From NCBI RefSeq assembly GCF_001462205.1, contig NZ_LKIR01000121.1, positions 75,862 through 139,861 of the forward strand: a stretch of 64,000 nucleotides of DNA. The letters are read 5' to 3'. Positions within the stretch are counted from its first letter, which is position 1. Each line of letters begins with the position of its first letter. Under the pieces are notes generated by a model. The model saw only the letters and a program-made list of their open reading frames with translations, made no database searches and was not told the origin of the DNA. The position numbers and the translations under genes were made by a program. This DNA is from Haloparvum sedimenti. GTDB lineage: Archaea; Halobacteriota; Halobacteria; Halobacteriales; Haloferacaceae. This document shows positions 14,799-19,405 of this stretch, piece by piece.

Positions 14799-15302
14799 TC
14801 ACTCGCCGCGGACGAGGTACTCCTGCTGGACGGCGACCACCTCGGCGGAGTCCTCGCAGTCGGCGTAGCGGCGGAGCGGTTCCTCGTTCAACTCGAGGAA
14901 CGTCTCGCCCCACGTGAACTTCGCGAGGACCCGCTCGGCGTGGTCGCGCTCGCCGAAGATGCAGAGCGCGGCCGCGAGCGCCTCGACCGTCGTGAGCCGC
15001 ATCGGGCGCCCGAAGTTGACCGGGTTCGCGGCGACGAGGTACGGGAGCGCGCGGTGCTCGCCCGGCATCGAGAACCGCTTCTCGCCCGCGGACTCCCACG
15101 AGCAGTCGAGCGCGACGAGCGTCCCTTCGCTGGTGTCGGCGTCCGCGGGCGAGAGCGCGCGCTCGGCGTGCGGGTTCAAAACGACGCCGTAAGGGGTCGC
15201 GCGGTCCGACCGGTGGAGGGTCGCCAGGTCGAAGCGCGCCAGCTTGCGCGCCGTGCACTTGTCGGGGTCGTCGTCGCCCTCGTACCGGACGTGGAGTTCC
15301 AC
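14799..15302 (-). CDS. tsr3: Tsr3-like rRNA aminocarboxypropyltransferase
   Basis: 167 residues of the former DUF367 family. Tsr3 transfers the aminocarboxypropyl group of SAM to a hypermodified base of small-subunit rRNA and is a ribosome-maturation factor. The sequence shows the conserved order [72 protein letters not shown] and [18 protein letters not shown]. Length matches archaeal members. The ATG at 15302 is used. It lies 43 bases downstream of the degenerate cis-prenyltransferase, in the same orientation. Confidence 0.9.
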
Positions 15303-15345: not shown

Positions 15346-15954
15346 TCAGCGACCGAACCGGCGCTGGCGGTTCTGAAAGTCGAGGACGGCCCGCAGGTAG
15401 TCCCGCTTCCGGAAGTCGCGCCAGTTCACGTCCGTGAAGTACAGCTCCGAGTAGACCGACTGCCAGATGGCGAAGTCGGAGAGCCGCTCCGCGCCCGTCT
15501 TGATCACCAGGTCCGGCTCCGCGGGGAAGACGAGGCGGTCGGAGATCTCCGCCTCGTCGACCGCCTCGGGGTCAAGATCGCCGTCGGCCACGTCCTCGGC
15601 GATCGACCGCACCGCGGCCGCGAACTCCCGTTTGCCGCCGAGCCCTATGCTGATCCGGATCGGGGCGTCGGCGCGCTCGGTGTCGTCGGGCGCGCGGACC
15701 GCCACCTCGAGCGGGGCGTCGACTTCGCGGAGCTCGCGCTCCAGCGTCGGGACGACCGCCTCGTCGAGCACCGAGACCATCACCGTCACGCGCTCGGCAC
15801 CGTACTCGACGGCCCATCGGAGCGCGTCCGAGAGCGTCTCGTAGGCGCCCTGTTCGAGCAGGTCGCGCTCGGTGATCACCACCGCGACGTGGGCCGGCGG
15901 GGCGGCGTCGTGGAACCGATGGCGGAGGGCGAGGTACGCGTCGTAAACTCCCAC
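15346..15954 (-). CDS. cis-prenyltransferase (UppS) family protein lacking the N-terminal active-site motif
   Basis: 202 residues. The C-terminal half is clearly of the undecaprenyl/dehydrodolichyl diphosphate synthase family: [19 protein letters not shown], then [20 protein letters not shown] and a terminal NRQRRFG. At the N-terminus, where catalytic members have a DGNRR-type motif after HVA, this protein reads [20 protein letters not shown], so the catalytic aspartate appears to be missing. It may be the accessory subunit of a heteromeric enzyme, as NgBR/Nus1 is in eukaryotes. The start is GTG at 15954, supported by a weak TATA-like stretch at 15977-15986. It diverges from the DUF92 gene. 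Confidence 0.82.
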
Positions 15955-16064
15955 GCTCGGGTCGTGGCGGCCCCGAGCCAAAAGTTCGCGGGTCCGGGAC
16001 CTCGCCCCGGCGTCGGCCTCGGACGGCCGACTCCCGAGGCATCGGCGGAGTGTGCGGTTCGGGA

Positions 16065-16072
16065 CCGTTAAG
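16065..16072 (+). promoter_or_regulatory. TATA-like box for the DUF92 gene
   Basis: CCGTTAAG is centred about 28 bases before the GTG at 16097. It supports that GTG as the true, nearly leaderless start rather than the upstream in-frame codon at 16052. Confidence 0.5.
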
Positions 16073-16096
16073 TGCGCGTCGGGGGAATCCCGGGGT

Positions 16097-17416
16097 GTGA
16101 ATCGGAGGACACGGCGCGCCGCGGCGTTCGCGGCGGTGTCGCTGCTCGCGCTTGCCGCCCCGCTTTTGGGGCCGGCGGCGCCCGCCCCGTTCGCGGCCGT
16201 GGCCATCCTCGCGGCGTTCGTGGTTCGCGAGGGGCGGCTGTTCGAGCTGTTCGCGCGCCCCGGCGACCGCCGGGACCGCCGGCTCAACGGTCTGGCGGGC
16301 TTCGCGCTCGGCGCGACCGGACTCGCGGTGTTCGCGAGCATCCCGGCCGTCTCGCTCTCGCCCGCCGTGTTCGCGGCCGCCGTGCTCATCGTCGGTGTCG
16401 GCAACCTCGGGACGCAAGCGGCCCGCGAGCACACCGACGAGGAGTTCCTCCACGCGACCGGCTTCGTGCTGCTGGGATCGATCGGCGGCCTCCTCGCGCT
16501 CGTGGCCGTCTCCGCGGGGGTTGGCGCGTCGGTCCGACTGCCGGCGTTCGTCTTCCTCGCCACCTCGGGGGCGCTCGCGGCCGCGTTGCTGCGGAGCGTC
16601 CTGCTGGAACAGGACGACCCCGTCGTGATGGTCTCCGTGGGCCTGCTCTGCTGGCTGTTCGCGGCCCTGGTCGTCGACGTGACGCTCGCGAGGATCGGTA
16701 TCGCGCTGGCGGTCACGGCCGCGCTCGGGTACGTCTCCTACGCGCTCGGCACCGCCTCGGTCGCGGGGATGCTCACCGGCGTGCTGCTCGGACTCGTTAC
16801 CATCGTGCTCGGCGGATTCGGCTGGTTCGCGGCGCTCATCGCCTTCTACGCGGTGGGGGGACTCGCCTCCAAGTTCCGCTTCGAGGAGAAGGCCGAGCGC
16901 GGCGTCGCACAGGAGAACGAGGGTGCCCGCGGCACGGGCAACGTGCTGGCCAACTCCGCGGTCGCGCTCGTCGCCGTGGTGGGCTACGCTGCGACCGACC
17001 ACGCGGCGATGCCCGCCGACCCCTTCGTCTTCGCGTTCGCGGGCGCGGTCGCGACCGCGATGGCGGACACCCTCTCCTCGGAGATCGGCGGCCTCTTCGA
17101 CAACCCTCGGCTCGTCACCACGCTCGAACGCGTGCCGCCGGGGACCGACGGCGCGATCACCCTGCAGGGCGAACTCGCGGGCATCGCCGGCGCCGGGCTC
17201 GTCGGCGCGCTCGCCGCGATAGGAATGCCCGTCGGCGACCCCCTGGTCGGCGGCGGCGTCGTCGTGGGGGCCGGCTTCGCGGGGATGACCGTCGACAGCC
17301 TGCTCGGCGCGCTTGTCGAGGGCGACCGGATCGGCAACCAGACCGTCAACTTCCTCGCGACGCTGTCGGGCGCGCTCGTCGCGGTCGCCCTCGCGTTCGG
17401 GGTGGTGCTGTCGTGA
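16097..17416 (+). CDS. DUF92 membrane protein (phytyl-phosphate kinase-like)
   Basis: 439 residues with about a dozen hydrophobic segments. The C-terminal half is the DUF92/TIGR00297 domain: GGLASKFRFEEKAERGVAQE, then GAVATAMADTLSSEIGGLF and ITLQGELAGIAGAGLVGAL. Characterised relatives in cyanobacteria and plants (VTE6) phosphorylate phytyl phosphate, so a polyprenyl-phosphate or CTP-dependent lipid kinase role is possible but unproven in archaea. The unusual N-terminal half is also membrane-embedded. GTG start at 16097. The stop overlaps the GTG start of the following acetyltransferase, and the gene diverges from a cis-prenyltransferase-like gene, which fits isoprenoid-lipid metabolism. Confidence 0.82.
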   Translation: MNRRTRRAAAFAAVSLLALAAPLLGPAAPAPFAAVAILAAFVVREGRLFELFARPGDRRDRRLNGLAGFALGATGLAVFASIPAVSLSPAVFAAAVLIVGVGNLGTQAAREHTDEEFLHATGFVLLGSIGGLLALVAVSAGVGASVRLPAFVFLATSGALAAALLRSVLLEQDDPVVMVSVGLLCWLFAALVVDVTLARIGIALAVTAALGYVSYALGTASVAGMLTGVLLGLVTIVLGGFGWFAALIAFYAVGGLASKFRFEEKAERGVAQENEGARGTGNVLANSAVALVAVVGYAATDHAAMPADPFVFAFAGAVATAMADTLSSEIGGLFDNPRLVTTLERVPPGTDGAITLQGELAGIAGAGLVGALAAIGMPVGDPLVGGGVVVGAGFAGMTVDSLLGALVEGDRIGNQTVNFLATLSGALVAVALAFGVVLS

Positions 17417-17890: not shown

Positions 17891-19405
17891 TCAGGCGGCC
17901 TCGGCACGGAGGTCGCCCGAGGTCCGGACGCGCGTCCCGACCGGTTTCTTGACGAAGTCGCCGGTCGCGGTGCCGAACAGCTCCGAGACCCCGCGCTGTG
18001 CCGCCACGTCGAGCAGGCGCTGGTTCACGGTCCCGTCGAGTACCACCGTGTGGGGCGGCTCCGCGGCGTCGGCGACCGCGTCGAAGGCGTCCTCGGCGTC
18101 GGCCTCCGCCAGCACGCCGCCGTCGGCGTCGAGCAGTCGCACGCGGCCGCTCCCCGAGTCGACCACCTCCTGCACGTGCTCCTCGAAGGAGCGTGCGCCA
18201 TCGTCCTCGGCCGATTCGGTTGCGGTCGGCGCAGGCGTCTCCGTGCTCTCGGACTCGCCCGACGTGGACCGCTCTTTCTCCCGCTCGGTCGCGTCGGGTT
18301 CGACTGCGTCGCTTTCGGTCGCACCGCCTTCTGTCGCACCGCCTTCTGTCGCACCGCCTTCGGTCGCACCGCTTTCTGTCGCCTCGGAGTCGCTCGCCGC
18401 CGATCCCTCGGCCCTCCGCGCGTCAGCATCCCGCTCCTCGGCGCGGCGGTCGTCATCGGTCCGTTCGTCGGCATCGTGGGTCGCGTGCTGATCGTCGGCC
18501 GACGCTCCGTCCCCGCGCTCCTCGGTGGCCCCCGCGTCCGACCCGTCGGCCGCTGAACCGCCGTCGTCCGCCTCGACGGCGGCCTCGCGCAGGTTCGGCT
18601 CGTCGGCGACGGTCGCGTACGGCACCTTCGCGCGGAGCGCCTCCAGCACCTCGCCGCGGTCGAGGTCCTCGACGGAGCGCCCGGCGGGCGCGAACGCGGC
18701 GTAGTCCACGTCGCCGACCTGTCCGAGCTCGCGGAGGATCAGCTCGCCGCCGCGGTCGCCGTCGAGGAACGCCGTGACGGTGCGGTCCGCCGTCAGGTCC
18801 GCGACCGCGTCCGGGACGTTCGTCCCCTCGACCGCGACCGCGTTCTTGATGCCGGCGTCGAGGAGGGTCGAGACGTCCGCGCGCCCCTCGACCACGATGA
18901 CCGCATCGGAGTCGCCGACGCGCGGGCCCGCGGGTAGCCCCTCGTACTCGGTGACGCCCTCGACTCGGGCGGCCTCGCGGACCTCGTCCAGCACGTCGTC
19001 GCTGGACAGCGAGGTCTCCTCGAACCCCGACGCGAGCAGTTCCTTCGCGCGGTCGACGACCTCGCGACGCTTGGCCGCGCGGACGTCCTCGATGCTGGTC
19101 ACCTCGACGGAGGCCTCGCAGGGCCCGATCCGCGTGATCGTCTCGAGAGCGGCGCCGAGGATGGCCGTCTCCACCTTCTCGAGGCTCGAGGCGACGGTGA
19201 GCTCTCCGAACGACTGTCCGTTCTCCGATTCGATCGCGACGTCGATCCGGCCGACTTTGTCCGACTGCTGGAGGTCGCGCAGGTCCAACTCGTCGCCGAG
19301 CAGGCCTTCGGTCTGCCCGAAGACCGCGCCGACCACGTCGGACCGCTCGACCACCCCGTCGGCCGCGATGGTCGCGTGAATGAGATATTTTGCTGTGTCT
19401 TCCAT
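17891..19405 (-). CDS. dnaG: archaeal DnaG primase-like protein
   Basis: 504 residues. An N-terminal archaeal DnaG domain (MEDTAKYLIHATIAADGVVE onward) is followed by a TOPRIM domain. The TOPRIM domain has the catalytic Glu in DAVIVVEGRADVSTLLDAG (near residue 175) and the metal-binding DGDRGG (near 216-221). Archaeal DnaG has primase activity and associates with the RNA exosome. Between TOPRIM and the C-terminal domain is a long acidic low-complexity linker (about residues 285-400) that includes a five-residue repeat. The ATG at 19405 is preceded by a small CCCC-GGAA-GGGG hairpin in the leader. Confidence 0.93.
   Translation of the reverse strand: MEDTAKYLIHATIAADGVVERSDVVGAVFGQTEGLLGDELDLRDLQQSDKVGRIDVAIESENGQSFGELTVASSLEKVETAILGAALETITRIGPCEASVEVTSIEDVRAAKRREVVDRAKELLASGFEETSLSSDDVLDEVREAARVEGVTEYEGLPAGPRVGDSDAVIVVEGRADVSTLLDAGIKNAVAVEGTNVPDAVADLTADRTVTAFLDGDRGGELILRELGQVGDVDYAAFAPAGRSVEDLDRGEVLEALRAKVPYATVADEPNLREAAVEADDGGSAADGSDAGATEERGDGASADDQHATHDADERTDDDRRAEERDADARRAEGSAASDSEATESGATEGGATEGGATEGGATESDAVEPDATEREKERSTSGESESTETPAPTATESAEDDGARSFEEHVQEVVDSGSGRVRLLDADGGVLAEADAEDAFDAVADAAEPPHTVVLDGTVNQRLLDVAAQRGVSELFGTATGDFVKKPVGTRVRTSGDLRAEAA
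18309..18380 (-). repeat. 15-bp in-frame repeat in the dnaG linker
   Basis: Four to five 15-base units encode tandem Gly-Gly-Ala-Thr-Glu copies (GGATE, with SGATE and ESDAVE variants) in the acidic linker of DnaG. Units are nearly identical at the DNA level, indicating recent slippage expansion. Confidence 0.8.

Follow-up and report, generated by a model that had tools for sequence, protein, structure and literature searches.

The gene at positions 15346-15954 of the window, by which we mean the whole 64,000-nucleotide stretch of Haloparvum sedimenti DNA that was analysed, in all probability encodes a non-catalytic (accessory) subunit of an obligate heteromeric cis-prenyltransferase (cPT) making a dolichol-type carrier. 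We assign this reading a probability of about 90% from comparative sequence analysis, and it is based on the reciprocal loss of motifs between the accessory and a catalytic partner, the co-occurrence of the two genes, their linkage, the fold, purifying selection and the precedent of Methanosarcina mazei. The gene and its motifs are the following.

15346..15954, minus strand: gene of the putative non-catalytic (accessory) cPT subunit, 202 aa, GTG start, stop codon included
15856..15876, minus strand: ITERDLL replacing the catalytic MDGNRRF, codons 27-33, with T28 at the Asp column and D31 at the first Arg column of the alignments
15472..15504, minus strand: partly kept IPP-binding segment, codons 151-161, with Arg changed to Lys at 152 and R157 and S159 kept (alignment columns)
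15352..15360, minus strand: RFG, the C-terminal RxG motif, codons 199-201, expected to reach the partner's active site

The GTG start at 15954 and the gene end at 15346 are taken from the open reading frame and the homologue alignment, and they agree with the coordinates and strand given in an earlier note made from the sequence alone. Homologues from 29 other genomes begin their alignment at accessory residue 1-3; on this account, and because it runs antisense to the divergent DUF92 gene, a longer ORF at 15346-16716 (456 aa) was rejected as the true gene. PF01255 covers only residues 87-201 of the accessory (E 5.1e-26, 92 bits against a curated cut-off of 27), and the NCBIfam uppS model matches it from residue 92 onward with a score under the model cut-off. 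A match confined to the C-terminal part agrees with a review (PMC7839719) which, in the text available from it, describes non-catalytic subunits as resembling other cPTs in the C-terminus only. A repeat search around the gene returned nothing beyond short two-copy matches.

The earlier note had proposed an accessory subunit like NgBR whose partner supplies catalysis, and a second UppS gene, on which such a reading depends, was indeed found in the genome: the one other PF01255 gene of Haloparvum sedimenti lies on contig C50 (G000:C50:26153-26818, E 4.2e-67) and has DGNRRYA present.

L001, 1411-2352 (G000:C50): catalytic partner gene, 313 aa, with DGNRR, STEN-R and the IPP site present and without the RxG tail

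At the position of the homomeric RxG tail the C-terminal part of this partner reads TYESREESWQRARTDRAV, followed by some 60 further residues. In homomeric enzymes, archaeal and bacterial alike, a single chain has the two motifs; 3 non-accessory rows are without one of them, two of these (L151 and L180) being truncated or broken frames and the third (L158) reading RNFG. When sequences of the phylum were sorted by HMM score alone, with the loci chosen from the matches listed, DGN was found in 0 and RxG in 56 of the 57 accessory-type sequences, the sole exception (L202) reading RKFG. Among the 75 catalytic-type sequences RxG was found in 0 and DGNRR in 72, the other 3 being cut upstream of the motif by the locus ends. 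Of five further sequences with weak scores, four are MM_0014-like and one comes from the genome G038. The motif counts are quoted from this HMM-score sorting; in the tree-based grouping, motifs had a part in delimiting the catalytic and homomeric sets. Loci for the motif and tree sequences were hand-picked among the PF01255 and homologue matches listed, and the alignments, trees and motif counts cover ORF segments of at least 160 aa. One accessory flagged as DGN-positive in the first tree set (L073) is a pattern artefact, arising from NGNLK in an insert. Very divergent accessories are seen in one family (L096 in G043 and L098 in G058, with 38-40% identity over part of the protein), and these still end in RRYG or RRFG. 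Judged by these motifs, the accessory lacks the half of an active site that its catalytic partner keeps, and the reverse, as in human NgBR and DHDDS.

The two genes are also close neighbours in most relatives, lying <5 kb apart in 46 of 60 related genomes and being convergent in all 46, where the distance is that between matched stretches and not gene ends. The linkage count is made on 120 rows, one accessory and one catalytic per genome for the 60 genomes, with split matches in G013, G030 and G045 joined by hand, and leaves out the second catalytic copy of G020, the third copy of G038 and a weak 199-aa frame in G057. The usual order in relatives is the catalytic gene, then the accessory on the opposite strand, then DUF92. 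Haloparvum sedimenti itself has them on separate contigs, with a distance of no less than about 117 kb between them, and what follows its accessory is TSR3, in the place taken in most relatives by the convergent catalytic gene. A partner without RxG, the convergent neighbours in 46 of 60 genomes and a phylum-wide pair together argue for the accessory role that the earlier note had proposed. The other genes read around the accessory are as follows.

16052..17416, plus strand: DUF92 (PF01940) membrane protein, E 6.7e-55 to PF01940, divergent neighbour and not part of the enzyme
14799-15302, minus strand: TSR3/DUF367 rRNA aminocarboxypropyltransferase, downstream of the accessory at a distance of 43 bases, in the same orientation
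17891-19405, minus strand: DnaG-type primase whose Toprim domain is followed by a long insert, acidic and repetitive (GATEGGATEGG repeats)

DUF92 adjoins and diverges from the accessory in 28 of the 30 loci read. A link between DUF92 and uppS was noted by Makarova and colleagues, who, in the part of their text available (PMC5898192), propose a kinase step in isoprenoid metabolism. Since the divergent neighbourhood is conserved and the protein is a predicted kinase of isoprenoid metabolism, a functional link of DUF92 to the carrier lipid is likely.

The accessory was modelled with AlphaFold2 at a mean pLDDT of 89.7 and has the cPT fold from residue 3. Foldseek and VIA-align both place it in the cPT fold, with UppS and NgBR chains tied: it aligns to 7jlm_A with Z 15.9 and rmsd 2.9 over 186 aligned residues, and to the NgBR chain 6z1n_B with Z 15.1 and rmsd 4.1 over 180, so that VIA-align does not separate a UppS from an NgBR kinship of the accessory (Z within 1). 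A profile of 17 accessories matches UppS at 3e-36, NgBR at 2.5e-10 and Nus1 at 0.001, and the accessory matches 7jli_A at E 5.3e-22. In the model of the single chain the RFG tail is ill-defined, as would be expected if the tail orders on a partner. In a catalytic homologue from Halopiger goleimassiliensis (L112, pLDDT 88.3) long C-terminal helices are predicted to replace the RxG tail; this extension (helices 237-269 and 275-283) falls mostly outside the structural matches, and we do not claim its equivalence to the helix-turn-helix of DHDDS. The poorly defined tail and the DUF92 neighbour in 28 of 30 loci could also suit a protein that serves, as subunit or regulator, to stabilise the catalytic chain or fix its location, or that acts with another partner such as DUF92, its tail lying outside the active site. 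We give this only a slight chance, as a purely structural role leaves unexplained why RxG is kept in 56 of 57 accessories of the phylum and lost in 75 of 75 catalytic chains.

In a 57-sequence alignment ITERDLL lies without gaps over the MDGNRRF of homomeric cPTs, so that T28 stands in the column of the catalytic Asp, D31 in that of the first Arg and L32 in that of the second. Two observations of the earlier note are borne out, that the DGNRR-type region is replaced by ITERDLL and that the C-terminal signature RLSDF...NRQRRFG is intact, the RFG tail being present; and no Asp is seen in the alignment at the catalytic position. Column counts were made on 82 accessory sequences, on 40 of the 83 catalytic sequences and on 6 of the 52 homomeric ones. 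In the accessories the catalytic-Asp column reads T in 44, S in 14, D in 11, A in 8, G in 2, K in 2 and P in 1, the cases with Asp including the ANME-type LDETDLL of L105-L108. Because 11 of 82 accessories retain the Asp, the constant feature of the accessory clade, as read from these columns, is the loss of G-N-R-R rather than of Asp alone. The first-Arg column is Asp in 80 of 82 accessories and the second-Arg column Leu in 71 of 82; D-G-N-R-R is seen in every one of the 40 catalytic partners and the 6 homomeric archaeal enzymes that were sampled. By its column, then, the near-invariant accessory Asp (D31), three residues past the catalytic column, is not at the position of the catalytic Asp. 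As described for human DHDDS in the available text of PMC7573591, Mg binding falls to the Asp, and binding of the FPP pyrophosphate to the two Arg of the motif, the first being R37; an Asp in place of that first Arg would argue against FPP binding by the accessory. The STEN-R segment, which in DHDDS carries another FPP-binding Arg according to the same text, is intact in 40 of 40 sampled catalytic chains and absent among the common residues of the accessories in the alignment columns. The IPP site was compared by the human residues R205/R211/S213 given there (PMC7573591).

The conservation of D31 in 80 of 82 accessories, an intact fold and a partly kept IPP segment are what one would want of a self-sufficient divergent cPT in which D31 of ERDLL has replaced the canonical catalytic Asp. 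This is very improbable, since D31 sits in the column of the first FPP-binding Arg and not in that of Asp, both Arg and STEN-R are lost, and the ever-present catalytic chain without RxG would stay incomplete.

The accessory has a homologue in 60 of 60 related genomes. PF01255 is found in 117 of 119 genomes of the phylum, always in at least two copies (two in 112, three or four in 5), and in none of the remaining 2; these two, G066 and G074, belong to one genus and are each over 90% complete. Elsewhere the copy number is lower: the phylum to which one Thermoplasmata genome belongs has one copy in 35 of 41 genomes, two in 5 and none in 1, and that of a Bathyarchaeota genome one copy in 57 of 61, two in 3 and three in 1. 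Ten genomes with a both-motif enzyme were reached via named loci, of which nine are single-copy and one, an actinobacterium, has four. In this phylum, then, two copies are usual, whereas the other archaea sampled usually have one. G020 and G077 each have two catalytic-type copies plus the accessory, and G038 (L101 / L192) has an extra weakly matching PF01255 copy with a PDGHRRYAD motif within a 622-residue open frame. Of 27 dN/dS comparisons of the accessory, 26 give about 0.15-0.37 and 1 is saturated, which indicates purifying selection on the gene. A decaying UppS paralogue or pseudogene, to which the absent catalytic motif and the loss of adjacency to the catalytic gene in Haloparvum sedimenti might point, has next to no chance of being right and was rejected, because the homologues in every relative, the presence of at least two copies in 117 of the 119 genomes, the dN/dS and the confident fold contradict decay.

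The clade of accessories that includes the window protein has SH-aLRT support of 82 in the first tree and 99 in the second. The second tree, from which L096 (a long row), a duplicate row of the window protein and the four MM_0014-like rows were omitted, has the accessories (25 rows, SH-aLRT 99) and the catalytic chains (24 rows, 98) each as one group, and holding the two together, as a single duplication and not separate origins would have it, is compatible with it (p-AU 0.606). The first tree placed the accessories deeper, perhaps from long branches. We consider it doubtful that a single early division of a homomeric archaeal cPT, and not two separate origins, gave rise to both the eukaryotic DHDDS/NgBR heteromer and that of this phylum. 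In favour of a shared origin count the match of the partner to DHDDS, its best among solved structures (E 1.6e-45, residues 20-290, running into the C-terminal extension), and the compatibility of a clade of archaeal catalytic chains plus DHDDS (p-AU 0.557). Against it count the higher score of DHDDS with the homomeric Thermoplasmata cPT (212 bits, against 159 bits with the haloarchaeal catalytic chain), its place beside Thermoplasmata in the free tree and its long branch there. No NgBR row stands in the trees.

Under the preferred reading, that of a non-catalytic subunit in a heteromer, the accessory, which has the cPT fold, should not bind FPP or Mg, as it has lost GNRR and STEN-R and carries Asp in place of the first FPP-binding Arg. 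Its partner would be the G000:C50 protein, whose C-terminal extension stands where the RxG tail would be. In the heterodimer the RFG tail of the accessory would cross the interface and complete the S1 and S2 substrate sites of the partner, as NgBR is described to do in DHDDS (PMC7573591, from the text available), and the likely product would be the polyprenyl diphosphate precursor of a phosphodolichol glycan carrier. The physical complex, its activity, the product and the product length are what we infer. Some observations speak against the heteromer reading, namely the different contigs of the two genes in Haloparvum sedimenti, a sequence closer to UppS than to NgBR, the change of the first IPP-site Arg to Lys, the Asp kept in 11 of 82 accessories and the RKFG of L202. 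If the reading holds, a large archaeal phylum would make its glycan carrier by an obligate two-subunit enzyme, with the labour split as in the human disease enzyme NgBR/DHDDS, and haloarchaea, which are genetically tractable, would offer in their small, anchor-free pair a simple model for the function of a cross-subunit RxG tail. To annotate the one or the other gene as an ordinary UppS that works by itself would be misleading, and studies touching one of the two genes alone would misread the outcome.

The kind of enzyme is already known in eukaryotes and in one methanogen, and the window gene is a well-supported haloarchaeal member of it. What is added here, as far as motifs and gene content tell, is the catalytically dead, RxG-bearing subunit as a phylum-wide partner, haloarchaea included; our literature search found no paper on a haloarchaeal heteromeric cPT, though we do not claim its absence from print. 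The closest known system is that of M. mazei, where MM_0618 and MM_1083 reportedly form a heteromeric cPT making C45-50 chains and MM_0014 acts independently of the pair (PMC8131916, citing Emi et al. 2019, in the portion of the text available). G159, a probable Methanosarcina genome, has an MM_0014 homologue (E 3e-138) together with one catalytic-type and one accessory-type copy, and by elimination these last two, as a pair, correspond to MM_0618/MM_1083. The M. mazei pair belongs to the same phylum, and the G159 accessory and the window protein share a clade; yet the window protein is about 40% identical to the methanogen accessories, and the haloarchaeal pair is known from sequence. Homodimeric UppS has the same fold and a similar C-terminal half, to which the 7jli_A match refers, but holds DGN[RG]R and RxG in one chain, whereas the window protein keeps RxG only. 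With human NgBR (NUS1) and yeast Nus1 the window protein shares the lost catalytic site, the C-terminal RxG that is kept and a partner with the converse pattern, and with human NgBR also the fold and a profile match (E 2.5e-10). It differs from NgBR in being nearer to bacterial UppS in sequence (3e-36 against 2.5e-10) and in being without the N-terminal transmembrane domain, its model 1-202 aligning to NgBR 80-293. NgBR, which has RxG and no catalytic activity, sends its tail (R290-x-G292) across the interface and helps to build both substrate sites of DHDDS, as the available text of PMC7573591 describes, and this is the role that we would expect of the RFG tail in the haloarchaeal accessory.
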